Shown: one piece after another, positions 20,317 to 36,881 of the stretch
How positions within the stretch are numbered: position 1 is the first letter of the stretch
How the letters are laid out: each line of letters opens with the position of its first letter
DNA from: Paracoccus nototheniae
Lineage (GTDB): Bacteria; Pseudomonadota; Alphaproteobacteria; Rhodobacterales; Rhodobacteraceae
Length of the DNA: 64,000 nucleotides
Direction of reading: 5' to 3'
Assembly: GCF_004335005.1 (NCBI RefSeq)
Contig: NZ_RQRT01000016.1
Coordinates: forward strand, 1 to 64,000
Program-made: the position numbers and the translations under genes
The notes under the pieces: generated by a model
What the model was told of the DNA's origin: nothing
Seen by the model: the letters and a program-made list of their open reading frames with translations, nothing else
Database searches by the model: none

Positions 20317-20446
20317 GGCAGCCTCGCATCGGATCGGGTTACTGCCAACCTAACACCAGCCGGTCTGCGGAATTAGTGAGGTGGTACCGAATGGACTTAT
20401 CGACTGAACCGATCAATCATGCCGGCCAGCGATGATGGGAGATCCG
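20317..20446. promoter_or_regulatory. Divergent promoter region of the LysR cluster
   Basis: These 130 bases separate the MFS gene (leftward) from the LysR-type gene (rightward). LysR proteins usually bind a T-N11-A palindrome in such a gap; the stretch around ATTAGTGAGGTGGTACCGAAT (about 20373-20393) is the most dyad-like part, but the match is weak. No clear -35/-10 pair was identified. Confidence 0.45.
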
Positions 20447-21340
20447 ATGCGCAAGCCCGACTTCAACGATCTGGTTTGGTTTCAGGCGGTCGCCGAACTG
20501 CGCAGCTTCACCAAGGCCGCGGCCAGGATCGGTGTGGCGCAATCCACGCTCAGCCAGACGATCCGGCAGCTGGAGGAGCGGATGGGGTTTCCCTTGCTGA
20601 CGCGCAACACGCGAAATGTGGCGCTGACGGTGGCGGGGGAACGCCTGCTAAACACCATCACGCCGCGCTTGGCCCAGATCGAGGACGTGATCGCCGAGCT
20701 GTCCGCCTTGCGCGATCTCCCATCCGGCTTGCTGCGGATCACGCTGTCGGATCATGCCTTTGACAGCCTGGTCTGGCCCAAGCTAAAGCCGGTGCTCGCC
20801 GCATATCCCGAGATCAGCGTTGAGTTCAGCCTCGACAGCAGCTTCCGCAACATCGTCGAGGAGGGCTTCGATGCCGGTGTCAGGCTGGGGGAGAGCATCG
20901 AGAAGGACATGATCGCCGTGCGGATCGGTCCTGATTGGCGGCTGGTGGCGGTGGCCTCGCCGGAGTATTTCGCGCGCCGCGGAATGCCCGACCATCCGCA
21001 GGATCTTCTGCGCCACAGCTGCATCAACATGCGCCACATCACGGCCGGCGGTCTCTATGCGTGGGAGTTCGAAAAGGATGGCCAGCCCCTGCGCGTGCGG
21101 GTCGACGGTCAGCTGACCTTCAATAATTCCTACGCGATGATCGACGCTGCCATGGTTGGCCTGGGCATCGCCTACGTTCCTGAAAACATCGTAGCGTCAC
21201 AGCTAAAGGCAGGGGCGCTCGTGCAGACCTTGGACGATTGGTCGCCCTTCTTCGAGGGATACTACCTCTATTATCCAAGCCGACGGCAGAACATGCCGGT
21301 GTTCAAAGCCCTAACGGATGCGCTGCGACACAAGAGATGA
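20447..21340 (+). CDS. LysR-family transcriptional regulator
   Basis: 297 residues from the ATG at 20447, with GGGAGA placed before it; an in-frame ATG 15 bases earlier lacks such a site. The N-terminal winged helix-turn-helix reads FNDLVWFQAVAELRSFTKAA...VAQSTLSQTIRQLEERMG.PLLTR. The remainder is a substrate-binding domain of normal length. It resembles regulators of quinone- or aldehyde-reductase clusters. Position suggests it controls the divergent six-gene set 14288-20316. Confidence 0.92.
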   Translation: MRKPDFNDLVWFQAVAELRSFTKAAARIGVAQSTLSQTIRQLEERMGFPLLTRNTRNVALTVAGERLLNTITPRLAQIEDVIAELSALRDLPSGLLRITLSDHAFDSLVWPKLKPVLAAYPEISVEFSLDSSFRNIVEEGFDAGVRLGESIEKDMIAVRIGPDWRLVAVASPEYFARRGMPDHPQDLLRHSCINMRHITAGGLYAWEFEKDGQPLRVRVDGQLTFNNSYAMIDAAMVGLGIAYVPENIVASQLKAGALVQTLDDWSPFFEGYYLYYPSRRQNMPVFKALTDALRHKR

Positions 21341-21991
21341 TGTGCCCAAATCAATGCTCACCGTGGACGGGCTATTGATGCAGCTCGCTACTTATTTTGA
21401 CCAACCCCATATGTTTGCCTCAGTCTAATGTAGCGTCACCCGCTGGATAATCCGACCGGTCGGACGATAGTAAGGCACGAACAAGTTGGACAGGGTGATC
21501 GCCCGATTCCGGAAACGCTGCGACGCAGTATGGATAAGCGTCGAGTGAGCGCTTAGGGCAGAACATGATGCCGCACCTGCAAAGGGAGGCTTTATGCTGC
21601 AGTCTGTCTGAATGTCGCTGATGGGCTCTTCAGGTAGCTATCGCCGCAGCTCGGTGGCGTCAGCTCTGCAGGACTTTTCAGTCATTCACGAGTGATCACT
21701 GGTCTCTGATTTGTCGTTTGAAATCATGCAAAACGCTTTGCCCCTGCAACGCAGGCCACGATGAGCAGCGTCAGCCGAAGCCGACACTTGAGAAGCTCGT
21801 GGTGTTCGAGATTGACCTTCATGGGCTGCTGCAAGTCCTTGGTCCGCGTAGTTGCTCTCTCCTCAGAGATTCGAAAAACGAATCACATGGCAACCATTTC
21901 CGTCATTCGGCTTGCACTTCATTCACTTTGGCCCGTGCGGGACCGGGCCAAAGTGAGAGGCGGGGGCCAAAGTCACGAAAAATCTTGGCGT
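21341..21991. other. Long stretch without a recognised gene
   Basis: About 650 bases. Apart from a small palindrome CGACCGGTCG near 21450 I see no supported structure. The translated frames before 21992 are rich in Ser, Arg, Cys and Trp, as expected of non-coding sequence. Confidence 0.4.
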
Positions 21992-22750
21992 ATGGTGAGA
22001 AGCAAGACACGATTGTGGAGCTTACAAGCAAGATGGACCAACGACGTGACCGCGGAGCAATTCCCCGAAAACGCTGCACCTGATCCGGTGATGGAAGATC
22101 GGGCCGAAGGCTCCTTAGCCGCATTGCCGCGGCACTCCTCTACCGATGCAGTGATCGATGAGACACAGGCGACACGTTCGGACAAAAGCGACTGCGGCCA
22201 AGTTTCGCCGCTGCAAGACCTAAGACGATGTCGGAGAGTTCTTTCAGCCGAAGAGCTGGCCAGTATTGCATCCGATTTTGAAAATGCGTGGCAGCAGGTA
22301 AGTTTCTCCAAGAAATCGCCGTGGCTTCATAGCAGCTTAACTATGCAGCAAAGAGGCCACGTCTCACGAGAAATTCCTGAGGCAGAGGAAGTCTGCAAGC
22401 TTTACAATGATCTGGGATCACTGGTGCAATTTGCAAACCTCTTTATCCTTGACCGCAATGGGGCAATAAAGGCGCTTTCGGCTGCCGGAATCGATATTTA
22501 TGAAGACGTAGGGCGTGACTGGGACGACCATCATTCATTCAGAGAACTCAGCAGACGGCACGGTGTAACGCGCGATACAATCTCTCGATGGATCAAAATA
22601 ACCGGCCGGGAAGTGCCACCCCGGAATAGCAAAAAGAAATATAAAATCGATCTGATCGTCAAAGCTTACGGCGAGAAGTCAACAACCAATTATGCCGCAA
22701 AGTCAGCCGGTGTTCACTGGCAAACTGCGCAACGTGCCTTAAAGAAGTAA
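21992..22750 (+). CDS. Hypothetical DNA-binding protein with C-terminal helix-turn-helix
   Basis: 252 residues if the ATG at 21992 is used; the frame is open from 21761, but the earlier part has non-coding composition, and an ATG at 22091 is another option. No start has a good ribosome site. The C-terminal 90 residues contain SFRELSRRHGVTRDTISRWIK (a clear helix-turn-helix) and a second similar unit YAAKSAGVHWQTAQRALKK, resembling transposase or integrase DNA-binding heads. Function unknown. Confidence 0.5.
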   Translation: MVRSKTRLWSLQARWTNDVTAEQFPENAAPDPVMEDRAEGSLAALPRHSSTDAVIDETQATRSDKSDCGQVSPLQDLRRCRRVLSAEELASIASDFENAWQQVSFSKKSPWLHSSLTMQQRGHVSREIPEAEEVCKLYNDLGSLVQFANLFILDRNGAIKALSAAGIDIYEDVGRDWDDHHSFRELSRRHGVTRDTISRWIKITGREVPPRNSKKKYKIDLIVKAYGEKSTTNYAAKSAGVHWQTAQRALKK

Positions 22751-22945
22751 CGGACTTGTTGAATAACCGCGCTTTGGACAAGATCCTTCCAAGGCATTGT
22801 TCTACACTAGTTGTGACGACGTTCAGTTAGGGCCACAGACAAATGGGTGTAAATAGGTCATGAGCCGTTTAGAATGTCGTAAACCATCGGCACAATCACC
22901 TGAACACCCTGATGATAGGCCCCTCGGCCGTAACTGGACATTGGC

Positions 22946-23845
22946 ATGTCAAGCCCGCGAGCTAACTTCCTGATTGAGATTACTGGAGAGAAAATCCCGG
23001 TCAGGGAAGGCTCTCTATTGCATGAGGGCTTCATTGCTCTGCGATCGTGCCACGGGAAACGCTATCAGGAGTTTCGTGATCAAGCGGGCGGAGCCAAAGG
23101 CTCTAAATCCCGCCGATACTCCCCGTCCGCGGTACTGAACAAGGCAGAGCAAACAGGCTTCGCGCGACTTCTCTCTCACGGCGGAGCAACACGCACAGAC
23201 AACCCTAACGCCTCTGCAGGTCGACTGCCCTCGGCAAGGCTGCACGAAGTGACTGCCGAGCATGTGCGCCAAGCCGTTTTTGATACCCTCGATCAGGGAT
23301 GGTCGTCACCCTTTACGGACTCACGCTCGTTCGACCTGATAACGGATGACGGCGAACGCCTCCCACCTAAGGTCGTTTTCGGGCGTGCCGCGACGCTAGC
23401 GCTAGGCTTTCCAGTATTGCCGAGCCACTTCTCGGGTGGAGAAGGCACTCCCTGTTTCAGAGTTCTTCGAAGGGCCGGTTATGCCGTTGTTCCGAAGGAT
23501 CAGGAACTGCCTGTTATTCTAGAATTCACGGCTGACGATCTGACGTGGTCGGAGGGAAGTCAGCAACTGGTCCATCACCTCCGCCGCGAGCGGGCACGGG
23601 GCGCGGCGCAGGCCAAACGTGACTCATTCCGACAAGAGCACGGAAGGCTCTTCTGCGAAAAATGTAACTTCGATCCGATGGACCATTATGGCGGACCGGA
23701 GGGTGAGGCTTGCATTGAGGTTCACCACAATGCCACCACCATTTCGGAAATGACAGCTGGCCATCGCACCAGACTTGCAGACCTTCAGTGCCTCTGCGCG
23801 AACTGTCATCGTGTTGTTCATAAGCTCATGAAGATGACGACCTGA
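22946..23845 (+). CDS. HNH endonuclease, McrA-like
   Basis: 299 residues from the ATG at 22946. Residues ~110-195 (FDLITDDGERLPPKVVFGRAA ... FSGGEGTPCFRVLRRAGY) match the head-type domain found at the N-terminus of ScoMcrA-like type IV restriction enzymes, as I recall it. The C-terminal HNH has CEKCNFDP, then EACIEVHHN and a closing CLCANCHRVVHK, so both zinc pairs and catalytic histidines are present. A type IV enzyme would cleave modified DNA. No sulfur-binding or SRA domain is obvious, so the recognised mark is unknown. It stands alone. Confidence 0.8.
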   Translation: MSSPRANFLIEITGEKIPVREGSLLHEGFIALRSCHGKRYQEFRDQAGGAKGSKSRRYSPSAVLNKAEQTGFARLLSHGGATRTDNPNASAGRLPSARLHEVTAEHVRQAVFDTLDQGWSSPFTDSRSFDLITDDGERLPPKVVFGRAATLALGFPVLPSHFSGGEGTPCFRVLRRAGYAVVPKDQELPVILEFTADDLTWSEGSQQLVHHLRRERARGAAQAKRDSFRQEHGRLFCEKCNFDPMDHYGGPEGEACIEVHHNATTISEMTAGHRTRLADLQCLCANCHRVVHKLMKMTT

Positions 23846-23892
23846 CCGCATCGAACCAACGGCTTATCCTCAGCATCACGATCGGACTGGAA

Positions 23893-24770
23893 TACTACCA
23901 ATGCCCTTCGAACCGCGTCGCTGCCGTTCTCGTATAGCGTGCCGTATGCCGGGGATCGCGATGGCCGAGATAATCCTGGATCAGGCGCAGGTCGCGCCCG
24001 GCATGGGCCAAGGCATGTCCGCAGGAATGGCGCAGCATGTGCGGATGGACAGCGTCGAGCCCCGCCCGCGCTGCAATGACCGTCATGAGATAGTTGATGG
24101 CCTGCCGCGTCATCGGCTGACCGCGCTCGGACAGGAACAGCCAGGACAGGCTGTCCTGCCGTCCGACCAGAAGGCGCCGGATCGCGCGCAACTCATCGCC
24201 TGCCAGCGGATGGCTGGTGGCAAGACCGCGCTTCAGGCGGTGAACCCAAAGATGTCCCGCTTTCGGATCAAGATCACTGCGGCGCAGCGCAATCAATTCG
24301 CTCACCCGCAGCCCATGCCGATACATGAGGAGCAGCATGGCATGATCGCGCGGGCCGTGCCGTCCGGACCGGGCTGCGATCAGCAGCCGCCTCATCTCAT
24401 CCGGCGTCAGGTAATCGCGCGGGCGCTGATGAGCATCGACGGGTGCGATCCCGTCACTCGTGACGAAACGCCGGTTGGCACGCCGCTCAGACATGCGATC
24501 CTCCCCCTGCAACTGCTGGCTCCGTCATCCTCAACTCTTGACGAAACGCACCTTGTGTAAAGAGTCCCGCGTCACGATTTCCGACGTGCCTCTTCCAGGA
24601 CAAGCCGGCCCTTCAGCGCCTGCAGGATCAGATCCTCGATCTCGCGGACCTGCAGTGCATGTTCCAGAGCGAGGCAACTGACGAGCCGGCTGATCTCGGC
24701 GTCCTTGGGGCCGTAGGTCGCCCAATCATCCAGTTCGTGACTGTCTGGATGATGAGCCACTGCAACAGCA
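23893..24770 (-). repeat. Recombinase module, direct repeat copy B
   Basis: This is the second copy of the block at 8366-9240, same orientation. Identity is very high over the recombinase and its ribosome site, then falls over the partner frame, which here is the 3' end of a larger gene. Confidence 0.8.
23895..24494 (-). CDS. Tyrosine recombinase, copy B
   Basis: 199 residues from the ATG at 24494, with GGGGGAGGA before it as in copy A. All catalytic residues are conserved (R63, K88, H152/R155, H178, Y187). Only about ten residues differ from copy A, including EPR to ERR near the start and a few conservative changes. Such similarity means recent duplication or co-acquisition. It follows the DUF429 fusion gene by 77 bases, the same spacing as in copy A. 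Confidence 0.9.
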   Translation of the reverse strand: MSERRANRRFVTSDGIAPVDAHQRPRDYLTPDEMRRLLIAARSGRHGPRDHAMLLLMYRHGLRVSELIALRRSDLDPKAGHLWVHRLKRGLATSHPLAGDELRAIRRLLVGRQDSLSWLFLSERGQPMTRQAINYLMTVIAARAGLDAVHPHMLRHSCGHALAHAGRDLRLIQDYLGHRDPRHTARYTRTAATRFEGHW

Positions 24771-25609
24771 GGCTGAAGATACTGGTGCGCAGGAGGACGA
24801 TCGGAAATGTGCGGATCGGCGATCCATCCTTCCAATGGGTCTACGACATCCGGCGCGCCAAACCTCGCATCACGCTGCCGCCAAGCCCAAGCAGCCTGAA
24901 CGGCGCAGAGGAGAGCGTCGAGATGGTCGGCGCCCGGATCGTCGCACAGGTTATCGGGGGCGATGATGTCGAAGCCGTATCGCGCTGGCGCCTCTTCACG
25001 AAGAGCATGCAGCAAACTATGGCGAGCCTGCCGCTGATCGGCATTTTGCTTGCTGCGCGTATCGTTCTTGTAGCTACGGCGACCGATGAATTGGCGGGCT
25101 AGAACGCCAGGATAGGCCTCCACGACGACACGCTGCGCATCACCGGCATGGAGGTGAGGGATGGTCACGCCTGAAGCAAGAAGACGGGGAGCACCCTCGA
25201 AGAACATCAGACCGACAGGCACGCCGTAAAGCTTCTGTGGACTAATCGAGCTCGCCTTCTTGTCGGTTGCACGACGATGCTCTTTATCACCCGCAGCCCG
25301 GTTTTCCTTGTACACTTCCAAGGCTTCGCGAAAGCCGTCGCGGCCAAGCTGGCCCGCGTGTCGAACATATCCCTCCCAGGTCGATGGCCAGCCGGCAGTC
25401 TCGACAAAGCGGCGGGCCTGACCGAAGGGAAAATCAATTCCCGCAATCCACGGCCCGGGCTGCGCCAATGCTGCGTTGAACGCGCCAAAGTCGGACCATT
25501 CCTCAAGGGACCGCGTGAGCAGATGATCTCCCTCCAGTGTGCACCAAAGACAAGTGATAGGCTTGCGCCGAGAGGGGCTGCTTGTGAAATCAATGCCGAG
25601 AATGTTCAT
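24572..25609 (-). CDS. DUF429 protein fused to the recombinase-partner module
   Basis: 345 residues from the ATG at 25609. Residues 1-280 fit DUF429, a predicted RNase H-fold nuclease family: MNILGIDFTSSP at the start, WIAGIDFPFG near 55, VEAYPGVLARQF near 170 and D.LDALLCAVQAAWAWRQ near 238. The last ~60 residues are homologous to the free small protein at 9045-9239. The junction is in frame without a stop. The fusion may have arisen when the module inserted next to a DUF429 gene, or the free form may be a remnant. No DUF429 biochemical function is established. Confidence 0.75.
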   Translation of the reverse strand: MNILGIDFTSSPSRRKPITCLWCTLEGDHLLTRSLEEWSDFGAFNAALAQPGPWIAGIDFPFGQARRFVETAGWPSTWEGYVRHAGQLGRDGFREALEVYKENRAAGDKEHRRATDKKASSISPQKLYGVPVGLMFFEGAPRLLASGVTIPHLHAGDAQRVVVEAYPGVLARQFIGRRSYKNDTRSKQNADQRQARHSLLHALREEAPARYGFDIIAPDNLCDDPGADHLDALLCAVQAAWAWRQRDARFGAPDVVDPLEGWIADPHISDRPPAHQYLQPAVAVAHHPDSHELDDWATYGPKDAEISRLVSCLALEHALQVREIEDLILQALKGRLVLEEARRKS

Positions 25610-25783
25610 GCAGAGACAGTAGCAAGGACGTGAGCCAAGATCGAACTTCCTCTATCGGGCAGACAGTCAGAATCATCCTGTAACGCGAGAAACAGCCCGT
25701 AATCTTTCGGTCTGGAATACCCCACTCTGTGTAAAAGGCTAGTTTGAATAGAGCGATGCCTGCAGGTCTCGGAATGCGCCCCG

Positions 25784-25865
25784 TAGACGCATTCATACTT
25801 CAGGGACCGCCAGAGGCGTTCGATGAAGATGTTGTCGATGCACCGGCCCTTGCCATCCATCGAGC
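25784..25865 (-). pseudogene. IS3-family transposase (OrfB) fragment
   Basis: About 27 codons encode SMDGKGRCIDNIFIERLWRS and then LKYECVY, the unmistakable core around the third catalytic residue of IS3-family OrfB. Nothing matching precedes or follows. It is a remnant left by deletion or recombination. Confidence 0.8.
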
Positions 25866-25919
25866 TCCGGGTGCCGGCCTGCGGCCGGACGGTGATCCGC
25901 ACACGGGGCCGGAGCGGTG

Positions 25920-26245
25920 AAATTGGGAGGGACCCACGCCTTGGCGTGGGAGGAACCGGATTTCTCCGTGGAGGCTGACGCGCAGCGGCACTAGAGCCCG
26001 TGTTCGGATCGCCAGCCGGATGGCAGGCGGAAAAACGAAATGAAAGATCGTCAGCGGTGCCAGAGCGAAACGGAGGCGCGGCTGTCCTCTGGATCAGCGA
26101 TCGCGGTGCCCGCGATCACCATATCTCTAAAAGGCAGCCTCTCGGCGGCCTGGTCGCATCGACGCGAAGAGCCCAAAGCTGACGGTCAAGATTGGGTCTT
26201 ATCCTTCCATCGCCTTTATCGCCTAAGGCGCGCAGGGAAGACCCC
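25920..26245. other. Hairpin-rich non-coding region
   Basis: No gene is seen. Tight palindromes are present: CCCACGCC-TT-GGCGTGGG near 25931-25948 and GATCGCGG-TGC-CCGCGATC at 26099-26117, with a weaker GCCA....TGGC near 26013-26026. The block ends at the strong terminator at 26254. A structured RNA on the plus strand is possible. I tried group II intron, RNase P RNA and tmRNA signatures from memory and none fits. Confidence 0.35.
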
Positions 26246-26253
26246 CAGAAATC

Positions 26254-26285
26254 AAAAAGCCCCTCGGTTTCCCAAGGGGCTTTTT
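26254..26285. terminator. Strong bidirectional intrinsic terminator
   Basis: Perfect 11-bp arms AAAAAGCCCCT (26254-26264) and AGGGGCTTTTT (26275-26285) surround a ten-base loop, with A and T runs at both ends, so it can stop transcripts from either side. It lies just past the inverted-repeat cassette and would end the small-peptide transcript (minus). Confidence 0.9.
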
Positions 26286-26302
26286 GGTGGGCGGATCTCT
26301 CC

Positions 26303-26613
26303 GCTGAGTGCTTAGCTCGACAGTGCCGTGCTGGTGATGATGGCCGTTCCGAAATTATTCAAGTTCTCTATGACTGCCTTTTCAGTCCGTTGAAGTTTAG
26401 TTGGAGTAATAAGTTCTTGTTCCGTCTCGATATTCATCTCTGTTTCAGTAAGTTCTGCTACCATAATGGTCTCCTTCTTGTTGAGCTTCTTCTTGCGTGG
26501 CCGGTCCTTGAAGTAGGACAGGAGGCACATCAGAAAGAAGCCGACTGCGATTAGAACCATCATCGTAAAGCTCGGCACCGGTAACCCGACGACTGTCGAG
26601 CGAAGCACTCAGC
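26303..26613. repeat. 311-bp cassette bounded by 22-bp inverted repeats
   Basis: Positions 26303-26324 and 26592-26613 are inverted copies identical at 21 of 22 positions. The single difference makes the stop codon TAA in the left copy. The repeats do not extend outward or inward and I see no target duplication. The cassette contains the small-peptide gene, a promoter-like pair lies just outside the right repeat, and a terminator lies outside the left one. It could be an invertible segment or a miniature element. Confidence 0.7.
26312..26464 (-). CDS. Small acidic peptide with strong ribosome site
   Basis: 50 residues from the ATG at 26464, preceded seven bases upstream by GAAGGAGA, one of the best ribosome sites in the island. 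The first part is acidic (MVAELTETEMNIETEQEL), the second uncharged and ends TAIITSTALSS. The stop codon lies in the left inverted repeat. The frame is open upstream, where an ATG at 26563 would add a membrane segment (MMVLIAVGFFLMCLLSYF) and a basic patch, so a longer membrane-anchored form is possible. The acidic leader plus short tail recalls secreted or modified peptide precursors, but no maturation gene is adjacent. Unrecognised. Confidence 0.5.
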   Translation of the reverse strand: MVAELTETEMNIETEQELITPTKLQRTEKAVIENLNNFGTAIITSTALSS

Positions 26614-26619
26614 TTCACC

Positions 26620-26648
26620 CATATCCCACATCGGCCCGCATCTGTCAA
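26620..26648 (-). promoter_or_regulatory. Candidate promoter reading into the cassette
   Basis: On the minus strand TTGACA (26643-26648) is followed after 17 bases by GATATG (26620-26625). The -35 match is perfect, the -10 fair. It lies immediately outside the right inverted repeat and points at the small-peptide gene. Confidence 0.45.
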
Positions 26649-26927
26649 GTTAGTTAATAATTTCAAGTAATTGGAGGGTATAGGTCATCTTCGGTCCTTA
26701 GCGTTCTGTGAAGTGATGTGCCCTGTTGCGTCAGGCAGCTCTCCGTCCTCAGCGTCTGCGATGCTGCATCGGCAAAGGGTCAGAGCATGAACGGCACGAG
26801 CGGCAGCTCCGTCCCGCATAGCCGCTGCCAGGGCGGCGCTCGGGCATAGGCGCAAGGAGCCCCAAGCGGTCATTCCACCCTAAATTCAGAAAATCACTTT
26901 GCGGCATCAGCGGAACATTCAAACGGC

Positions 26928-26960
26928 TTGACTGTGATGGGCGATAGCGACACTTCTCTA
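26928..26960 (+). promoter_or_regulatory. Possible promoter of the argC leader
   Basis: TTGACT at 26928-26933 could be a -35 box. Around 26951-26960 only a poor -10 (TTCTCTA) is present. If used, the transcript would begin at or near the leader ATG at 26964, which would make the leader peptide mRNA leaderless, as known for trpL of rhizobia. Weak support from sequence alone. Confidence 0.3.
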
Positions 26961-26963
26961 GGC

Positions 26964-27059
26964 ATGTTCAGGAGCCAGACCCTTTTTGATCGACGCCGAC
27001 GCCGCGCCCCCTTGCGGCGGCTCTTTGGGCTGCGCGTCGATCAGCGTCCTGTGGTGTAG
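26964..27059 (+). CDS. Putative arginine leader peptide of argC
   Basis: 31 codons from ATG to TAG. Ten encode arginine: codon 3, codons 10-14 in a row (CGA CGC CGA CGC CGC), 18-19, 24 and 28. The ATG lacks a clear ribosome site; an in-frame ATG at 26937 would add nine residues. The Arg run sits in the 5' arm of a hairpin and a terminator follows before argC. In classical attenuators, scarce charged tRNA stalls the ribosome on such codons and prevents the terminator. The reading is inference, but the combination of codon run, target gene and terminator is specific. Confidence 0.6.
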   Translation: MFRSQTLFDRRRRRAPLRRLFGLRVDQRPVV

Positions 27060-27148
27060 TAGCGGACTCGCTATATAGCCCACTCCCCCAAAGAGCAGAT
27101 CCGACCCGCTTTCCTGAGCCCCCGCAGCCTTCGGCTCCGGGGGCTTTT
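26988..27148 (+). promoter_or_regulatory. Putative argC attenuator RNA
   Basis: Pairings visible in the leader are: GATCGACGC (26988-26996) with GCGTCGATC (27034-27042), enclosing GCCGC/GCGGC (27001-27005/27014-27018), so the Arg codons lie in this hairpin; GCTCTTTGGG (27020-27029) with CCCAAAGAGC (27087-27096), perfect over ten; and GGCTGCG (27028-27034) with CGCAGCC (27123-27129), which would open the 5' arm of the terminator. A ribosome stalled at 26991-27005 would free 27020-27034 for the last pairings. This would be antitermination when arginine is short. Confidence 0.5.
27117..27148 (+). terminator. Intrinsic terminator inside the argC leader
   Basis: Outer arms AGCCCCCG (27117-27124) and CGGGGGCT (27138-27145) enclose AGCC/GGCT with a TTC loop, then TTTT and, after GC, TTTC. 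It is oriented toward argC and ends 29 bases before its ATG, too close for a promoter in between, so argC must be transcribed through it. Confidence 0.8.
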
Positions 27149-27177
27149 GCTTTCTCAAGCCTGAAGAGGACACCACC

Positions 27178-28155
27178 ATGAGCATTCGCGTCGGCATTGT
27201 CGGCATCAGCGGTTTTGGCGGCGGCGAAGCGCTGCGCTTGATCGCTAGCCACCCCTCGTTCGAGCTGGTCTACGCCGCAGGCGAGGGCAGCGCCGGTAGT
27301 CGGTTGATGGACCGCTTCCCTGGTGTGCCGGACAAGCTTGCCGATTTGGTGATCGCGAAGTGGGACCCTGCTGCCCTGCCGAAACTCGACGTGCTCTTTG
27401 CCTCGCTGCCCACGGGCACCTCGGCCGAGGCGCTGGCGCGTGTTCCTGAGCAGGTGAAGATCGTCGATATTGGCGGCGACCACCGCTATGTCGAGGGTTG
27501 GGGTTACGGCTTGGCTGACGTCTGGCCTGACCAGATCAAGGACCGGAGCCGCATTGCGAACCCTGGGTGCTTTCCCGCCGCGACACTGAATGCGCTGGCC
27601 CCGCTGCTCACCCACAAGCTCATCGAGTCTGGGAACATCATCATCGACGCCAAGACCGGCATCTCTGGGGCAGGCCGGGGCGGCGGTGACAGCAAATTTG
27701 GTTATGCAGAAAGCAACGAGAACCTACAGCCCTACGGCCTGCTGAAGCACGTCCACATGCCCGAGATTGCCAAGACCATTGAGCAACTCAGCGGCGGCAG
27801 CGCAGCCGGTCTAGTGTTCACACCGCATCTTGTGCCGATGACCCGAGGCGTTCTCGCCACCATCTACTGCCGGGGCACTGCGACCACTGAGCAGTGCATG
27901 GATGCGGCCCGGAGTTTTTATGCGGACAGGCCGTTCGTCCGAGTGACCGACAGGCCGCCACAGACCAAATGGGCCACTGGTTCAAACCTCTCTTTCGTCA
28001 GCTATGTAGCCGACCCGGAGCGAAACTTGGTCATTGCGATGGGCGTGGTCGACAACCTCGGTAAGGGAGCCGCTGGACACGCGGTGCAGAATGCGAACCT
28101 GATTTGTGGGCTTGCTGAGACGGCAGGATTGGACGGGGCACCTATCTGGCCGTGA
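27178..28155 (+). CDS. argC: N-acetyl-gamma-glutamyl-phosphate reductase
   Basis: 325 residues from the ATG at 27178, with GAGGA nine bases upstream. It reduces N-acetylglutamyl phosphate to the semialdehyde with NADPH in arginine synthesis. Seen: Rossmann start VGIVGISGFGGGEALRLI, the active-site segment ANPGCFPAATLNALAPL with the catalytic Cys near 126, GISGAGRGG near 162, and HVHMPEIAKTI near 196 with the catalytic His. It is shorter and quite different from the ArgC I expect of this family, and no other arginine gene is near. A second, acquired argC is likely. Its leader suggests arginine control. Confidence 0.92.
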   Translation: MSIRVGIVGISGFGGGEALRLIASHPSFELVYAAGEGSAGSRLMDRFPGVPDKLADLVIAKWDPAALPKLDVLFASLPTGTSAEALARVPEQVKIVDIGGDHRYVEGWGYGLADVWPDQIKDRSRIANPGCFPAATLNALAPLLTHKLIESGNIIIDAKTGISGAGRGGGDSKFGYAESNENLQPYGLLKHVHMPEIAKTIEQLSGGSAAGLVFTPHLVPMTRGVLATIYCRGTATTEQCMDAARSFYADRPFVRVTDRPPQTKWATGSNLSFVSYVADPERNLVIAMGVVDNLGKGAAGHAVQNANLICGLAETAGLDGAPIWP

Positions 28156-28180
28156 CGCTAAGGTGAGGTTGCACCTGCGT

Positions 28181-28206
28181 AGCCGTTCGCATCCTTGCGA
28201 GCGGCT
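28181..28206 (+). terminator. Hairpin after argC
   Basis: Arms AGCCGTTCGCA (28181-28191) and TGCGAGCGGCT (28196-28206) pair over 11 positions with one T-G wobble and a four-base loop. No T run follows, so termination is uncertain. From here to about 28597 I see no gene. Confidence 0.4.
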
Positions 28207-28597
28207 GCTTCATCCCGCAAAGCTGACGGATACCCGTCACGTCTGTGCGTCTCCTTTGTGCGACACCTTTCGGGAAGTTTTTCCTGACAGCCCGAGTTCT
28301 TTCCGCGCCTGCGCAATGTCCCGCAAAGCAGACCGTCAATCGCCACCCTGGTTCGTCCGCTATGCGGGACAAAGCTAACATTCACGATACGAAAACTTTT
28401 CACGCGCATAATGAATGTGGAACGGCTTGGTTTCTTGCCCATCTTGAGAAGCCTGGATCGCAAGTTTGGCCACAATGTAGACAGGCCGGACATCCAGAAT
28501 AATCAGCCCAATATCGCCTGCTGGAGATGAAACGCCTAAGCTTCGAAAACTCGATACCTAGCCAGATTTCCTCAAACTCGACTGTCGTAGGATTGGC

Positions 28598-29019
28598 CTG
28601 GTCTGCCCCCAGCACGATGGCCTGGCGGCTTACGTTGAGCTTTGCTGAAGGATCGATCATCTTTTTACGCTCGGCAACAGATCCGCCTTTCCGAACACGC
28701 CGGACATCGCAGCAGGGACCGTGGCCCCAGTGGGGCCGCGTAAGCCCTGCGGAGAATCGTTCTCCAGCGCCAACTCTCCGATCTTGGCATGCAATGTCCT
28801 TATGTCGATTATAGGGACCAGTTCAGCCTTTGGCGTGTCGCCGAAAACACCTGTCGCACCTTGCAGGAACTGGTCACGCCACTGTTTGATCTGGTTCTGG
28901 CGGGCATCAAAATCCCGTGCCAGCTCGATCAATGTTCGCACACCCTTGATCGCGGCTACCGCCACCTTCGCCTTGAAGGCCGGGCTGTGGTTCCGGCACG
29001 GTCGTCTCGTCATGGTCAT
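28598..29019 (-). pseudogene. IS3-family element remnant (orfA with insertion, start of orfB)
   Basis: The frame 29019-28657 is an OrfA: PAFKAKVAVAAIKGVRTLIELA then NQIKQWRDQFLQGATGVFG. After LALEND an in-frame run of about 16 foreign residues interrupts the normal end before GKADLLPSVKR; the inserted bases contain a GGCCCC/GGGGCC palindrome. OrfB starts at 28660 (MIDPSAKLNVSRQAIVLG), but similarity stops after about 20 residues. The element is dead. The catalytic part of an OrfB in opposite orientation survives separately at 32150-32301. Confidence 0.8.
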
Positions 29020-29076
29020 CTCCTCGCATGCAGCATCATGCTGCTGGTGCGCGGAAAATCCACTTATCCCGGCTGT

Positions 29077-29943
29077 TCAGTTTTCCCGAGCTACCTCTGG
29101 AACCTGCTTAGTGGCTATCCTGTGCAGCTTGGCAAGGTCAGACAGGTGTCCGGGCAACTTCGTCTGGGTAAGGAGGATAGTGCGAACCGGGGCATCCCTG
29201 CGCGCATCCATCGCTGCGGCGACGGCCTGATACTTGATGCACTGGTAGAGCCCACGTTCTAGATCGGCCAAATTAGAGGTATAGGATTTTACCTCAACGC
29301 ACACCGTTTCCTCGGGTCCGCGTAGGACGACATCGACACGATCACCCGACAAAAGAGGTACTTCGGTAAAGGCCTTGTAGCCCGCGTAACGTGGATCGAT
29401 CGCGCCAGGGTTAGCTGTCGCCCAGAGGCGGAGCCTCTTGTGAGGTTCGCCTTCGCCGCCAGCCGATCCGTCACGCTCTTGCGGCACCACTGGTGCTGGC
29501 ATTGCGCCGGGGCCGAAAACGTCGTTGATAATTTTGTCCCAGTCCTCAAAGGAATAGACTTCGGTGATTGCACGGTCGCAATACTTGCTCCAGAACTTTG
29601 GCCTATCCTTCCATACATCTTTGTTGGCAAGAGCTTCCTTGCCAAACCATTGAGCAAGGAAGCCACCGGCTCCGTTACCAGGGTAACGTGTATCCTGACG
29701 GACGAGGAGGACGTTCAGGAGCGGCACATGTGGGTAGTGCTCATGGATACGATTCATGAGATTTCCTGCAGGAACACCCATCTCTGTTGAAAAAATTTTT
29801 GTGAATGGGGCTCCGGCTTCGAGCGCCGTGGCGGCTCGTCCATAGGTTAGTGCAGATCGCTCCGCAGCTGCTTGGGCGAGTAGGCGGGCAAGCAACGATG
29901 TGCCATAGGACCTGAGATTGTCGTGAGTAGGGCTGTAGATCAT
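29077..29943 (-). CDS. Predicted PD-(D/E)XK nuclease-domain protein
   Basis: 288 residues from the ATG at 29943, preceded by GGAGAG. The C-terminal third has the nuclease order: EVPLLSGDRVDVVL with the metal-binding Asp, VCVEVKSYTS (E.K strand), and a following helix YQCIKYQAVAAA with the Q...Y pattern seen in RecB-like members. The N-terminal ~170 residues are unrecognised; they include LLARLLAQAAAERSALTYGRAA. A stand-alone DNA-processing or defence protein is plausible in this island, but no partner gene is evident. Confidence 0.65.
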   Translation of the reverse strand: MIYSPTHDNLRSYGTSLLARLLAQAAAERSALTYGRAATALEAGAPFTKIFSTEMGVPAGNLMNRIHEHYPHVPLLNVLLVRQDTRYPGNGAGGFLAQWFGKEALANKDVWKDRPKFWSKYCDRAITEVYSFEDWDKIINDVFGPGAMPAPVVPQERDGSAGGEGEPHKRLRLWATANPGAIDPRYAGYKAFTEVPLLSGDRVDVVLRGPEETVCVEVKSYTSNLADLERGLYQCIKYQAVAAAMDARRDAPVRTILLTQTKLPGHLSDLAKLHRIATKQVPEVAREN

Positions 29944-30224
29944 AATCTCTCCATCAATCTTAAAATTATGCGGTAAATACCGGAGCCTAACGTCGAAAAC
30001 GTGCACGACTGACACAAGTCATTAAAGTAGCGCAGGTTCGACATTTTAATGTATGCGCCATGAAAGGGACCTTCACTTTAGTGCAGCGAAGATCAGGTCT
30101 GTCTGCATAGAGCCGGTGGTATAAGTCACTGCTGCGACTGCTATGCAGCATGTGCTCGCGGGTAGCGAGACTGCGCCCAGTTCCTAGATCACCGGGCGAG
30201 ACCGCTTGAACGATAGCTTCATGC

Positions 30225-30812
30225 CTAGCGCTGTGTGGTTGGCAGAACATCCCCCTTCGATATCCTTAGCAGGTCGTCGAAAGCGTCTGTGAACGCAATT
30301 CTCAAGTCGTGTGCTTCATTTGGAGGGTCGTGATCAAAGTCAGATGCGACAATGGCTTCTCTCAAGGTCGCTATCCTTGAGACAAAGCTCTCAGACAGAA
30401 CTAGCCGATCTTCGTTGAGGATTCTGCGCGCTTCCCACCAATGTTTTAATGCGTCGTTACGCCAGTCCTTATAAGTATCAGTCCGATAGAAGAATTCAAC
30501 ATCCCGTCCAGCTTCAGAAAACCCGTCATCGATATGGCTCCAGAGGTCGCGCGCGTCGTTAAGGTTCGTAAGAACGGCAGCGTATGCTCGCCTCCGTTCT
30601 TCCCAAATACGTTGAGCAATGAAGCGCTCTCGCTCTACGTGCGACAGCTGGCTAGCAACGGATAGCGTGGCTGCTTGATTTGCCTTGGCCCCAACTTTCG
30701 TCCCGAGTATCGCACCACCAATGCCAACGGCACCACTTATGACCGCCCCAACCGCAGTGATGATTGCCGCCCATACTTCGGGGCTCCAAACCGTTGAAAC
30801 AGTCTCCATCAT
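30225..30812 (-). CDS. Hypothetical single-span membrane protein
   Basis: 195 residues from the first of two adjacent ATGs at 30812, with AAAGGA about 12 bases upstream. Residues 10-35 (AAIITAVGAVISGAVGIGGAILGTK) are a glycine-rich membrane segment, followed by an amphipathic and then charged helical domain (RIWEERRRAYAAVLTNLNDARDLW...). This build, a short anchor and a cytosolic helical domain, is common for unannotated island proteins. Function unknown. Confidence 0.65.
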   Translation of the reverse strand: MMETVSTVWSPEVWAAIITAVGAVISGAVGIGGAILGTKVGAKANQAATLSVASQLSHVERERFIAQRIWEERRRAYAAVLTNLNDARDLWSHIDDGFSEAGRDVEFFYRTDTYKDWRNDALKHWWEARRILNEDRLVLSESFVSRIATLREAIVASDFDHDPPNEAHDLRIAFTDAFDDLLRISKGDVLPTTQR

Positions 30813-31019
30813 GTTTTCATTTTTCCTTTCGCGCTCTATCGACTGAGGTTGTCTCACTGGGGTCTGTACAGCTGACGCAGGCTCACGGCCTCCGTGCATC
30901 TATTAATCATTTAAAGACGAGGCATCTTTTGAAAGAAAATCCTTAGTAGATTGAGGCTGTCGAATTATGGTCTAAACAAATTTCCTTATCATGTTCCTCT
31001 TATACTGAGCATCTTAAAA

Positions 31020-32054
31020 ATGAACCGTTTCGAGCGCATAACTTCCGGCTACCACGCACGATCTTCCGCTGCAGCTGGCTGCACGTCGCGCGGCGCGGCG
31101 CGTCTTGGGTGGCTGGTCATCGCCGCGGCGGCCGCCCTGCTTCCCATGCAAGCGAGAGCCGCCTCTTGGGCGGAGGCTATCGCGGCGGTCGAGGCGCAGG
31201 AAGAGAAGCTCTGGCAGCTTGCCCACCGCCGCGGTCAGGAAGGCCGCCACATCGGAACGCTCTACAACGAGTTCCACGCCAACGAGCACAGCTGCTCGAT
31301 CCTTGGTAGGATGCTCGGCAAGGCCGACTTTATAGTCGAACTTGAGCAATCGACGCAGATCGACATTTCAACCACCGACGGCCACGCTACTGGCGTTGCC
31401 GCTCATTCTCTCGGGAACTGGGCGGCGAGTGCACGTCGGCTGCTCGATCTCGACGAGCCTCGGCGTATTCGGGAGTGGAACTTGGACTGCGTCGGCGAAT
31501 TCGGCATTCCCGGCACGGCATGGATCGGCGAAAATGGCGCGCCAACCTTCTTCGACATCGACGGCACGACGCTAAAGGTGATTGGGAACGTAGAAGAGGG
31601 CTTTTCCCAAAGACTGATCGCGGTCATCGAGGAGAACCCGCATATCACCCATGTCGCCCTCGGCAGCGCCGGCGGAAGCGTGCACGAGGCCATCATGGCC
31701 GGTGTCTTCATCCGTCAGAGGAACCTGGAGACGCTCCTCTGGAACAACTGCTTCTCTGCCTGCACGATCGTCTTTGCTGGCGGGGTCAAGCGACAGATCT
31801 GGTCGCCATATCCTGATCTCGCCTTCCATCAGGTCAGCATCGGTGGTGTGGCCGTGCCCTCCGACGATCCTGTCTATGACCGGCTCGGGTCCTACGCTAG
31901 GCTAATGGGCATTCACCCCAAGCCATTCCTCGCGCTCTTCCGGAGCGCGCCGCCGAGCGACTTCACTCGGCCAAAGTCGGATCTGCTCTGCGCTGCAAAC
32001 ATTGCAACTTGGGTACAGCGGGCCTGCGATGCTAAGGACTACTCCTGGAACTAA
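31020..32054 (+). CDS. Exported ClpP-like (COG3904-type) protein
   Basis: 344 residues from the ATG at 31020; the frame is open to a TTG at 30951, but the ATG gives a more usual signal anchor (LGWLVIAAAAALLPMQARAAS). The second half follows the periplasmic ClpP/crotonase-like pattern: ITHVALGSAGGSVHEAIMAGVFIR as the oxyanion strand, then NNCFSACTIVFAGG with the predicted nucleophile Ser, and a His in LAFHQVS. Members are predicted serine proteases with no known substrates. The stretch between the signal and this domain is unrecognised. Confidence 0.7.
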   Translation: MNRFERITSGYHARSSAAAGCTSRGAARLGWLVIAAAAALLPMQARAASWAEAIAAVEAQEEKLWQLAHRRGQEGRHIGTLYNEFHANEHSCSILGRMLGKADFIVELEQSTQIDISTTDGHATGVAAHSLGNWAASARRLLDLDEPRRIREWNLDCVGEFGIPGTAWIGENGAPTFFDIDGTTLKVIGNVEEGFSQRLIAVIEENPHITHVALGSAGGSVHEAIMAGVFIRQRNLETLLWNNCFSACTIVFAGGVKRQIWSPYPDLAFHQVSIGGVAVPSDDPVYDRLGSYARLMGIHPKPFLALFRSAPPSDFTRPKSDLLCAANIATWVQRACDAKDYSWN

Positions 32055-32149
32055 TAAGCTCTTGGCTGCGGCGTGTTGGCTAGACACCGAAACGTGGCTA
32101 GCGAGCTAGATCGAACACTGTTTTGGGGCGCACACCCTTAAACTGACTT

Positions 32150-32301
32150 CGACACAACCCCAACTCTTCGCATCGTATGCGCAAGAAAAACTGGAGACTT
32201 GGCGTAGGCACTACAACGAGGACCGACCTCATCGTGCGATCGGATATAACGTCCCGATCGCCCTGCATTATCCCGGCGGCGCAGCCAGCCCGTCGCCATG
32301 A
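32150..32301 (+). pseudogene. IS3-family OrfB C-terminal fragment
   Basis: In frame up to TGA at 32299-32301 the text reads EKLETWRRHYNEDRPHRAIG followed by YNVPIALHYPGGAASPSP, the normal end of an IS3-family transposase. The upstream part is missing. No gene is otherwise seen in 32055-32470. Confidence 0.8.
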
Positions 32302-32470
32302 CCGAGCCGGAAAACTCCAGCATCCGGCGGTCCAAGGTTGGGAAGCAGCGCACAAACCGAAAGACTCTCATTATGAACAAGGGACGATCGGGGGGCAGAT
32401 CACCACATGTACACTATGGCCAGAGGACTGAAGTTCAGGCCGGGGAGGACCATTGGTCTGAAGCCATTAC

Positions 32471-33793
32471 TTAACTCATTCCCTCCGGTCTGTCCGGCCA
32501 ATATTTTCTAGACTGATGGTATTCAAGAGACTCTCCTAACTCCGAGAACTCAAGAAGGCTTCCGACCTTCTCCATTAGGACATCGCGAACCTCGGCAGGT
32601 TTCGCAAAGAAGAATTCCTTGCGAGCATTCACCGCGTTCAGAGCTCTGTCCCGAAAATGAGTGTGAAGCTCATTCTCCAATGACACGGCGTCTTCGGAAA
32701 AGAAAAGGGCGTGAACATCGAAACGAAAAGGAACGGATGCGCCACCTAGCTCCGTTATGCGATCATTTGGATCAAGCCGTCTCGTCAATCCAATCTTAAC
32801 AACGTTCGTGCCGAACGCCCCCCGGTTTGAGATGACGTAAACATATCCCGATCTAATGTTTGCTAGGCGGAATTCGTTCTGCTTGATGGCATCCTCCAGC
32901 GCTAAAAGGTTCGCCTCCAAGTCGGGGTTTCTCTCTCCTCTCTCCCAAAGTGCCTTGATGGCGTTCTCAAGGTGGTGCTTCTCTTTCGCCAGCCGCTCAC
33001 GCTCCTCAGCGAACTCCTTTTCGATGCGCTTCTCCTCGCGAATTCTCGCCCGATTTTCTCTCTCTGCTTCCTTTTCTTCCTGCTTCTTCATTAGCCAGTC
33101 GGCCGTGAGCTCGACCTCTCGCACCCGGAGATCATGGTACCGCTCGCTGATCTGCATCTCCATGATTTTGCCCAGATTCGTGATAGCCTTGCGTGACGCT
33201 TCGAGCCGCTTCTTGGCTACAGCTGGATTTCCGGTGCGAAGTGAACGGATGCAGTTATCGCATTCGGCGTTGTAGGCACGGAGCATCAGCCTCCCCAGGT
33301 CGCTCGACAGCTTTCGCCCTGCGGCCAAGGAGTTCTCGAAGGTGAATGTCGATGAAACCTCAATGGCCCCTTGCTCCCTCACGATCTTGGCCACCTCAAC
33401 CTCGATACGCTCGAGTTCGGCTCTGTATCCTGCGGCATTCTCGAGTGGATGGTGGTATCGGTAAATACCGATGTCCTGTAGGATTTTCTGGTCGTCGAAG
33501 GAGATGGTTTTCTCCGCAGCTGTTGAGCTGTCGGCCAGCTGCGCCTGCAGCCTCGCCACCTCGGCCTTCAACGCGAAAAGCTCGGTGAGCGAAACCTCCG
33601 GGACCGTCGAATTGCTATCTATCTCAATCGCTGGCGCTGCTTGAGGCATGTCGCCGGCGTCCGCTACCCAGAGCTCCCACCCCTCGGGCATGGCAGGCCA
33701 GTTCGGGTCGGGCTTCCAGTCCTTAGGGGGCGTCCACCCCTTAGGTGGCTTGGGCCACCCAGGAGGCGGATTGAACGTCCGTCCTTTCGTCAC
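32471..33793 (-). CDS. DUF4041 / T5orf172 GIY-YIG protein
   Basis: 440 residues from the ATG at 33793. The first 45 residues are Trp-Pro repeats (PPPGWPKPPKGWTPPKDW, then PDPNWPAMPEGWELW). Residues ~75-320 are a long coiled coil of the DUF4041 type. The C-terminal ~100 residues hold the GIY-YIG variant: SGYVYVISN, VVKIGLTRR, DRITELG, and LENELHTHF with the catalytic Glu, then NARKEFF. A nuclease or DNA-binding role is expected. Its start overlaps the stop of the upstream coiled-coil gene (ATGA), so the two act together. Confidence 0.8.
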   Translation of the reverse strand: MTKGRTFNPPPGWPKPPKGWTPPKDWKPDPNWPAMPEGWELWVADAGDMPQAAPAIEIDSNSTVPEVSLTELFALKAEVARLQAQLADSSTAAEKTISFDDQKILQDIGIYRYHHPLENAAGYRAELERIEVEVAKIVREQGAIEVSSTFTFENSLAAGRKLSSDLGRLMLRAYNAECDNCIRSLRTGNPAVAKKRLEASRKAITNLGKIMEMQISERYHDLRVREVELTADWLMKKQEEKEAERENRARIREEKRIEKEFAEERERLAKEKHHLENAIKALWERGERNPDLEANLLALEDAIKQNEFRLANIRSGYVYVISNRGAFGTNVVKIGLTRRLDPNDRITELGGASVPFRFDVHALFFSEDAVSLENELHTHFRDRALNAVNARKEFFFAKPAEVRDVLMEKVGSLLEFSELGESLEYHQSRKYWPDRPEGMS

Positions 33794-35022
33794 GACTTGC
33801 GTACTCCTGTCACGTCGACGGCGACGAGGCCGACGGGGTCTTTGGAGATCGCGGCGCCGAGATGCTTCAACGTTGCCAGCGGCACAAGGCCGGAGAGATC
33901 AAATTCCATGAAACTATCACGCTCGGCGCTGACACCTACAAAAGGAAGGAAATCAAGCCGCCCCGTGGCAGGGTGCTGCGCCTTCGTGCCGACCTCGAGC
34001 GAGATCGTCCGGATCAGCCCGCGCCTGTCCGCTTCGAACACTTCGTGGAGCGACCTGATCGCAACTTGATGCAGGACGCTGGCATACCGTTTCTTGATCT
34101 CCATCTGGGACAGTGGGACGTCGCGTATCTCGTCGGACGTCTTTATGTATTTGTACTCCTTGGTCGCCGGAAATTTGTCTGGGGACGGGATCGTCACGCT
34201 CATCCGCAGCTCGGCTGTTTCAGGTGCGAATGAGAATTCATGCGTGACTTTGAAGTGATCGGGGTAAGTTGAATTCTCCACTATAAGCGAGATGTACTCC
34301 TGAACCGCCTCGGCGTCGCCATATGAAAGGTTTGTAATGAATTGGTCGATAGAGCGGTTGTGATCGTCCAGTTCCTGCCGGAACCGATCTTTCTCTGCGG
34401 CTAGCGTTTCAATCCTTTCGGCTTCTGCCTTATCATAGGCAGCCAATTGAATTTTATACTCTTCACTTAAAGCAGAAACACTACTGGCCCACTCCGCCTT
34501 TTGCGTCTCGTGAATTTGCCGCGCTATGGCACGCGCTTCCTCAAGCTTCCGCTTCTTACCAAAGAAACCTTTGGGCTTGTCTGGTTCGAGATATGTTGGT
34601 TCAGGTGGAAACGTTGGTCGTTTGGGAGCGACCAAGGAAATCTCCAAATCAGGCATGTCGAATGGTGTCGTATCAAACGGCTTTCGAAGAGTCTCAAGGT
34701 CTATATGGTCATCGACGTCGATCGTGGCGGCCAGTAACCCTTCGAGATCATCCAAGACCGCATCAATTTCCGAACTCATTCGTTCGACCTCGGATTGCTG
34801 GGCTGCGGCATGCGCGGCTTTTACTGCCTTCTCGTAAGCCGTCCGATCGCGCTCATCCGCGATCACTGCTTTCCGGACCTTGGCTTCATAAGCCTTCGCC
34901 TGCTGAGCTGCCTCTCTCCGCTCGGCGAGGCTACGACGTTCCGCAGCCTTTGCACGACGTACACGATCTTTTTCCGCGGCTTTCATAGCCTTCAGCGTGA
35001 CGCTCAGTAAACTTTTGGCCAA
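33790..35022 (-). CDS. Coiled-coil hypothetical protein, partner of the GIY-YIG protein
   Basis: 410 residues. The first ~80 are strongly basic and helical (AAEKDRVRRAKAAERRSLAE). Residues ~85-150 contain Pro-rich PKRPTFPPEPTYLEPDKPKG, then another coiled coil to ~215. The C-terminal ~190 form a compact domain with IKKRYASVLHQVAIRSLHEVFEAD, FMEFDLSGLVPLATLKHLGA and AISKDPVGLVAV. The last segment resembles, from memory, a domain common in actinobacterial proteins of unknown role. Translational coupling to the downstream gene suggests a two-protein system, possibly defence. No catalytic motif was identified. Confidence 0.65.
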   Translation of the reverse strand: MAKSLLSVTLKAMKAAEKDRVRRAKAAERRSLAERREAAQQAKAYEAKVRKAVIADERDRTAYEKAVKAAHAAAQQSEVERMSSEIDAVLDDLEGLLAATIDVDDHIDLETLRKPFDTTPFDMPDLEISLVAPKRPTFPPEPTYLEPDKPKGFFGKKRKLEEARAIARQIHETQKAEWASSVSALSEEYKIQLAAYDKAEAERIETLAAEKDRFRQELDDHNRSIDQFITNLSYGDAEAVQEYISLIVENSTYPDHFKVTHEFSFAPETAELRMSVTIPSPDKFPATKEYKYIKTSDEIRDVPLSQMEIKKRYASVLHQVAIRSLHEVFEADRRGLIRTISLEVGTKAQHPATGRLDFLPFVGVSAERDSFMEFDLSGLVPLATLKHLGAAISKDPVGLVAVDVTGVRKS

Positions 35023-35223
35023 TGGTTACCACCCCTTATTCGACAATTTTGTTCAAGCTTATCTCACCACGTCCTATTGTCTACGACCTGGCTTGCCATA
35101 AGTTGGCACCGCAAAGCATTGGTGTGGTGTAGGAGCCGTGAGGTACGGCACTTGTCACCAAGATCCGATGTGGGGGAGCCGCTCCGCAGCGATGCCCTGT
35201 TTGATGAACGGCAGGTATGGGCT

Positions 35224-36826: not shown

Positions 36827-36881
36827 CGGCTCTTCGCGTCGATGCTGCGCCGACCGCTGACCGTCCGATTTTGTGAAGCAG

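Follow-up and report, generated by a model that had tools for sequence, protein, structure and literature searches.

A Putative Arginine-Specific Leader-Peptide Attenuator Before an Accessory argC Gene in Paracoccus nototheniae and Other Alphaproteobacteria

The Locus

The stretch of DNA analyzed here (the window) comprises 64,000 nucleotides (nt) of Paracoccus nototheniae (positions 1 to 64,000 of contig NZ_RQRT01000016.1, assembly GCF_004335005.1). It carries an accessory isoform of argC, encoding N-acetyl-gamma-glutamyl-phosphate reductase (27178-28155, + strand), and immediately before this gene a leader (26928-27177) which, judging from its sequence, is very probably a ribosome-mediated transcription attenuator reporting the supply of arginyl-tRNA. 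The argC product is of the TIGR01850 type (type 1), with 284.3 bits against this NCBIfam model (cut-off 233.6), and the gene is under purifying selection, the ratio of nonsynonymous to synonymous substitution (dN/dS) being 0.056-0.094 against five relatives. The leader peptide frame (26964-27059, + strand) consists of 31 codons and a TAG stop, and its translation, ending in the stop, is MFRSQTLFDRRRRRAPLRRLFGLRVDQRPVV. Ten of its codons encode arginine (Arg), including five consecutive control codons, CGA CGC CGA CGC CGC (26991-27005, + strand). An intrinsic terminator, composed of a hairpin (3:4) and a U tract (27117-27148, + strand), follows the frame and ends 29 nt before the argC ATG (27178); with just 29 nt between terminator and gene, a transcription start 3' of the terminator is unlikely.

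The leader would have its own promoter, with a -35-like hexamer TTGACT (26928-26933, + strand), whose TTGAC lies 36 nt before the ATG, and a weak candidate -10 region CACTTC (26951-26956, + strand), at 17-nt spacing and 7 nt before the ATG; a scan with the sigma-70 consensus pattern gave no promoter in 26500-28500. Three exact pairings are present in the leader, namely 26988-26996 (GATCGACGC) with 27034-27042 (GCGTCGATC), 27020-27029 (GCTCTTTGGG) with 27087-27096 (CCCAAAGAGC), and 27028-27034 (GGCTGCG) with 27123-27129 (CGCAGCC). The frame with its ten Arg codons, the run of five, the terminator, the 29-nt gap and these pairings had all been listed in a first-pass annotation of the window, and each is correct to the base. 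The terminator core (27126-27145) is the sole terminator-like site found by pattern scan in 26500-28500, although shuffled sequences average 1.9 sites, so that the scan by itself is no evidence. Among 2187 control stretches of 340 nt taken from these loci, 75 contain a plus-strand frame of at most 48 amino acids with RRRR, and the Arg frame by itself would thus be weak evidence; a chance Arg-rich frame is ruled out by its conservation at a fixed place in relatives. The fold of the leader RNA beats 200 of 200 shuffles (z -3.2).

Conservation of the Leader and the Second argC

The sequence upstream of argC was read in the best 80 of 196 relatives in genome contigs, in six plasmid loci (of nine matching records) and in three same-genus loci besides the window's own (36 same-genus genomes searched). 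L068, which had no upstream sequence, and L089, identical to L005, were dropped, and 88 loci were judged, the window included. The leader is present in 54 of the 88: directly before argC in 51 (37 of Methylobacterium/Bosea/Reyranella type and 14 of Acetobacteraceae type, the pattern false positives L008, L038, L054, L055 and L070 being excluded from this count), and before the preceding gene in the other three, where a GNAT gene (L038, L055) or an NTF2-like gene (L063) stands between leader and argC. A run of three to five Arg codons in frame with a conserved ATG is found in 49 of the 51 direct leaders. The first-pass annotation had read the locus as an attenuator, and the recurrence of Arg-rich frames and stems before homologous argC genes supports that interpretation: the Arg run and the stems are both conserved in homologues. 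On the argC tree (10 of 84 branches starred; L091 left out), the presence of the leader needs at least 11 changes, only one of them forced by the starred branches, and gain and loss of the leader cannot be separated on this tree.

The genome of the window has another argC, of type 2, at G000:C166, in whose immediate upstream no Arg-run leader was found. In 29 genomes searched via their type-1 argC locus (22 with leader and 7 without), a second argC-like match was found in every case, at 121-166 bits, which is below the family cut-off and is read as type 2; the leader-bearing argC is thus an accessory isoform. Since the argC served is a second, patchily spread copy, promoter, leader and gene would form a self-regulated unit.

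Some loci deserve separate mention. One same-genus genome (G019) holds an argC copy broken by an internal TAG and without leader (L091), and Rhizobiales bacterium 2SD holds two leader-argC copies on different contigs (L041 and L080), together with an Arg leader before its type-2 argC (L281). Phage-borne copies were also sought: 39 stretches of viral contigs fit the leader pattern, and none matched the covariance model of the leader at E<=0.01.

Reading Frame, Start Site and Codon Choice

The alignment comprises 51 leaders, L004 and L025 included, and its version A1 comprises 50, L025 being left out. The ATG lies 27 nt before the aligned run-start column in 48 of the 51; in the 14 leaders of Acetobacteraceae type and in L090 the run itself starts a codon further on. 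Two of the 51 differ in spacing because an in-frame deletion of 6 nt shifts their alignment (L056 and L065, where whole codons are taken out), and one has no ATG. Beyond the run the distances vary: from the run-start column to the second stem arm there are 44 nt in 36 leaders, 43 in 11, 39 in two, 40 in one and 34 in one. The frame is therefore held as far as the Arg run and varies beyond it, as expected if the Arg run alone matters; RRRRRAPLRRLFGLRVDQ and RRRRRCTQAAALRAARRSAS are examples of the resulting peptides.

The promoter-like motif also keeps its distance from the frame. Measured from the aligned ATG column, as were the run spacings, TTGAC lies 37 nt before the ATG in 39 leaders, 36 nt in six and 38 nt in four (49 of 50 in total). 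With a -35 box at this distance, transcription would begin on or beside the AUG; from the positions of the -35 and -10 elements we infer a start site no more than about 2 nt from the leader ATG, and the leader mRNA is thus probably leaderless.

The codons of the run can be read directly. In 49 leaders all 218 run codons are CGA, CGC or CGT (110 CGC, 81 CGA and 27 CGT), with no CGG, AGG or AGA among the 218, while in the argC genes of the same loci these three codons make up 630 of 953 Arg codons (537 CGC, 245 CGG, 75 AGG, 70 CGT, 23 CGA and 3 AGA). The share of CGA is 81/218 in the runs vs 23/953 in the genes; the run codons are not independent observations, as loci share ancestry and the codons sit in stems. 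CGA, CGC and CGU are decoded by a single inosine-bearing tRNA-Arg, and we propose from the codon choice that the most direct signal would be this tRNA.

These data bear on two other explanations. According to the first, which we consider quite improbable, the leader would be an untranslated, GC-rich structured RNA binding a metabolite or a protein, CGACGCCGACGCCGC being kept for pairing and the Arg codons being a by-product. The Arg codons do form part of the 5' arm in each stem, the primary sequence is very conserved, and pairing could account for the codon choice; against this, the ATG and the run are in frame at near-fixed spacing, the 6-nt deletions of L056 and L065 remove whole codons, and both the start codon and the TTGAC spacing are conserved. 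Rfam speaks against it too: there was no match in 26900-27200 at E<=1, at gathering scores the whole window gave tRNA-Pro only, and 20 related loci (16 of the type-2 argC kinds and four of the window kind, see below) gave none. A known Rfam element (amino-acid leader, T-box or riboswitch) is ruled out by this absence of covariance-model matches.

The second explanation accepts an attenuator, but with a trigger other than low arginine, namely damage to one tRNA-Arg, its poor supply, or general slowing of the ribosome, and with protection against an arginine-synthesis inhibitor as its purpose. It would agree with the fact that a single tRNA reads every codon type found in the run; here neither an inhibitor nor a resistance phenotype is known, and we hold this explanation to be rather unlikely.

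Alternative RNA Structures

Leader translation and the direction of the response being inferred from the anatomy, the attenuator would work as follows. With plentiful Arg-tRNA the ribosome would clear the Arg run, and region 2 (27014-27042) would pair with the Arg codons or be covered, upon which the terminator would form and argC would remain untranscribed. With scarce Arg-tRNA the ribosome would stall on the run; region 2, now free, would pair with the terminator's 5' arm (27119-27125), and transcription would continue into argC.

The potential for these pairings is visible in the alignment. The region 1:2 structure (26988-27042, + strand) has an outer stem (26988-26996/27034-27042) and an inner stem (27000-27005/27014-27019) lying on the Arg codons; in the 50 sequences of A1, pairing holds in 99.3% of cells for the inner helix and in 78.7% for the outer helix (six pairs), with breaks mostly in Acetobacteraceae-type leaders. 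The terminator helix is paired in 98.5% of cells in 50 sequences, and 1:2 and terminator together reach 93.8%, above all 500 shuffles (mean 92.3). The proposed antiterminator (27014-27125, + strand) is made of 27014-27017/27122-27125 and 27019-27020/27119-27120, with 27021-27029/27087-27095 inside. When the RNA is folded with a ribosome placed at Arg codon 3, the antiterminator core (alignment columns 31-34 with 164-167) provides the commonest partners in 42 of 50 sequences.

The first-pass annotation had proposed three mutually exclusive pairings, and all three are complementary. The stem 27020-27029/27087-27096 extends the antiterminator helix and is paired in 88.4% of cells, vs 45-63% when slid; one pair changes on both sides in 13 sequences, but shuffles reach the same level of pairing in 143 of 500 cases, and three of the ten pairs occur in the window alone. 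The third stem (27028-27034/27123-27129) is complementary in 97.7% of cells, but hardly forms in folding: its mean probability is at or below about 0.001 in every folded state, and it provides the partner in five of 50 sequences. Instead, the 5' arm of the terminator is occupied mainly by 27014-27020, and then by part of the stem 27020-27029/27087-27096.

Several results weigh against the attenuator as described. Regarding conservation, the same argC lacks the leader in 34 of the 88 loci, among them the closest Paracoccus relatives (L005, L006 and L085), so that the two are not always found together; moreover, L004 has just two adjacent Arg codons and L025 has no ATG. Regarding structure, covariation in 1:2 plus terminator is not above shuffles (two-sided changes 2 vs 1.4), and the six pairs of the antiterminator core, present in 50 of 50 sequences, are invariant and hence uninformative. 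Placing the ribosome in folding does shift the pairing in the direction expected of an attenuator, which speaks for it, though not fully. In folds made before the terminator 3' arm is synthesized, the 5' arm is paired upstream with a mean probability of 0.588 with the ribosome on Arg codon 3, compared with 0.291 when only the RNA from column 70 onward (27053 in the window) is available (lower in 48 of 50), although the amount of RNA open to pairing is also larger in the stalled state. The gain over a shuffled region 2 is modest (0.515; lower than the 0.588 state in 45 of 50). At equilibrium, the terminator of the whole leader has a mean probability of 0.91 when free and 0.92 with the ribosome beyond the run, and it is weakened rather than abolished with the ribosome at Arg codons 1, 3 and 5 (0.85, 0.58 and 0.76), means that include four sequences near 0 in every state, probably owing to shifted columns; the window's own values at these codons are 0.25, 1.00 and 1.00. 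From this modeling, the switch would have to be decided during RNA synthesis.

Other Genes Behind the Same Leader

A covariance model of the leader was run against 385 genomes of the class and against two families, that of Methylobacterium (199 genomes) and that of Neoroseomonas (249 genomes), with matches in four (the window's own and one chance match included), six and 27 genomes (one chance match included), respectively. Besides the window (L094), this yielded 39 places, 36 of them with the leader layout. Two of the matches, L095 and L159, fall within a frame that by eye resembles a ribonucleotide reductase; they show no leader and are read as chance. A third, L096 (about 1500-1670), is a decayed leader with an argC remnant rather than an intact unit. 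The genome of L096 (G394) also has an intact leader-argC (L093).

Among the 36 places with the layout, 28 precede argC, two a GNAT gene followed by argC (L139, L145), four a GNAT gene with no argC in the stretch examined (L148, L151, L156, L160), and two an NTF2-GNAT fusion (L158, L161), where the leader has diverged and the terminator sequence is different. The Arg run and TTGAC are retained in 36 of the 39 places, L158 and L161 included, counts that are slightly circular, as the choice of start scored TTGAC at 34-39 nt and a long run. A simple terminator pattern occurs in 34 of the 36, and L148 and L157 start with GTG. Within this set, L130, L142, L143, L144 and L153 come from the same organisms as the model, L127, L146 and L147 have identical peptides, and L145 repeats L055. 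A separate search with GNAT matched 63 of 249 genomes, with a leader at six of the 30 loci examined (five GNAT and one fusion), all six being places already found by the model. Pfam identifies Acetyltransf_1 and SnoaL_2 in the proteins served. The window-type leader is thus seen before GNAT acetyltransferase and NTF2-like genes, whether these stand alone, are fused or share an operon with argC. That it serves an extra argC, GNAT and NTF2-like/GNAT genes, and not the whole pathway, would suit a trigger other than low arginine.

Dissimilar Arginine Leaders on the Housekeeping argC

Upstream sequences of type-2 (housekeeping) argC genes were taken from the class sample (80 of 289 genomes match), the 29 type-1 genomes, three Reyranella-like loci, and two further families (23/119 and 112/119 genomes). 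The 244 stretches gave 238 with a start and 236 distinct upstreams, which were scanned for a frame of 8-35 codons opening with ATG and containing three or more Arg in five codons, followed by a U-tailed hairpin within 90 nt. Such a leader was found in 35 of the 236, compared with 0/1180 mononucleotide shuffles and 0/236 reverse complements; five of the 35 are doubtful by eye (L315, L317, L383, L393 and L406). Examples are MISFIRRRPVQAAPARPR (L278), MISGCTIVRRRRLARTARER (L314) and MNQSLLIIRRRMIAAPARVR (L353), and the loci also include L274, L276, L277, L281, L309, L333, L334, L336, L342, L344 and L345. TTGAC stands 35-39 nt before the ATG in 26 of the 35, and 107 of their 116 clustered Arg codons are CGA, CGC or CGT. 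An earlier, looser scan had given 10/109 upstreams vs 2/1090 shuffles and 1/109 reverse complements, and another 12/53; several of the looser-scan matches lay on spurious-looking frames, and the criteria were then tightened. The window model did not pick up these leaders, its six matches in the 199 genomes all preceding type-1 argC. With the five doubtful leaders left out beforehand, antiterminator complementarity is barely above shuffles (5.0 vs 4.5 nt; higher in 27 of 30).

Differently sequenced Arg runs in a similar layout before the housekeeping argC speak for the attenuator and are a further argument against an untranslated structured RNA. They also fit plain feedback, and in this respect argue against a trigger other than low arginine. 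A third kind of leader, MKPFALLRSRRRRFEKR... (LLRSRRRRF type), precedes type-2 argC at eight loci of Reyranella-like genomes (L015, L033, L045, L247, L252, L263, L264 and L269); its hairpin, AAGCCGCT..AGCGGCTT, has no U tract, and it may work by another route.

Relation to Known Systems

Leader-peptide attenuators are well established for trp, his, leu, thr and phe genes, and Rfam has leader families. The present leader resembles them in its short frame, in which codons for the amino acid of the pathway abound, and in its alternative hairpins and intrinsic terminator before the first gene; it differs in arginine as the signal, argC as the gene and the lack of an Rfam family match. In model bacteria, the standard account places arginine genes under repressors. 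An accessory isoform under a starvation-responsive leader is reportedly found in Streptomyces, where an attenuator precedes the indolmycin-resistant tryptophanyl-tRNA synthetase; there the amino acid is Trp and resistance is said to have been shown. In the literature searched (mostly without subscription papers), no description of a leader-peptide attenuator for argC was found. The accessible part of PMC1262725 reports no arginine attenuator in Actinobacteria and a candidate attenuator upstream of trpS2 in S. avermitilis, and that of PMC2965389 mentions neither argC nor arginine.

Closer to the present case, uORFC-8-2 before cysS in Rhodobacterales has been proposed to act by ribosome-mediated attenuation (PMC8632094, in part); it shares a conserved upstream open reading frame, tandem control codons and an alphaproteobacterial order, and differs in its cysteine codons and in serving a tRNA-synthetase gene. 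The rhizobial trpL/rnTrpL is a leaderless attenuator RNA which begins with AUG (PMC10117765, in part), and shares with the present leader an alphaproteobacterial host and, probably, the leaderless start; it differs in its Trp codons, and a dual-function RNA and a functional peptide are described there. By analogy, the terminated leader might act mainly in trans as a small RNA, an alternative that the likeness of layout to rnTrpL favors (PMC10117765, in part) and that we regard as improbable.

A sensor of another kind, in which the nascent peptide would arrest the ribosome on a small molecule, is suggested by SpeFL-type leaders, which sense ornithine. Salmonella orf34, before speF, has two consecutive Arg codons and responds to ornithine and arginine (PMC6386406, in part). 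Consecutive Arg codons in a leader frame sensing arginine are therefore shared with the present leader; as far as that source goes, the differences are that orf34 serves an ornithine decarboxylase, involves Rho, translation and RNase G, and has a conserved peptide domain. Arrest peptides usually need a conserved sequence, as is generally known, whereas here the leader types have no conserved residues outside the Arg run and part in reading frame after it. The SpeFL/ORF34 (DUF2618) core around HIRRT is absent from the leader translation by reading, and NCBIfam gave no match for it. Such a nascent-peptide sensor is accordingly very improbable in our estimation.

Genome Surroundings

The argC unit lies among genes of mobile type (window 19000-37024), consistent with an island: a phage-integrase-family frame (23895-24512), transposase-like frames judged by eye (28657-29019 and 35330-36676), a tRNA-Pro gene (36948-37024), and DUF429 and T5orf172 genes. 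Clustering of the neighbors around argC (clusters unannotated) revealed no obvious common partner gene.

Significance

On sequence grounds, the interpretation that stands is that an arginine-specific leader-peptide attenuator, probably leaderless, accompanies the accessory argC and has been reused before other genes. More tentatively, promoter, leader and terminator might constitute a mobile cassette tuned to the tRNA reading CGA, CGC and CGU, moved before a second argC, GNAT and NTF2-GNAT genes, the leaders of the housekeeping argC having arisen separately in several alphaproteobacterial lineages; we regard this as possible, with the odds against it. If true, it would provide a stand-alone response to a shortage of arginyl-tRNA, possibly a protection against natural inhibitors of arginine synthesis or against attack on tRNA-Arg. 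More broadly, leader-peptide switches that probably respond to arginine appear repeatedly before argC in Alphaproteobacteria, both on a mobile isoform and, in dissimilar sequences, on the housekeeping gene. If correct, this would add a new amino acid to the textbook attenuation mechanism, would predict leaderless, translated small frames easily overlooked by annotation, and would supply a portable arginine-responsive control element.

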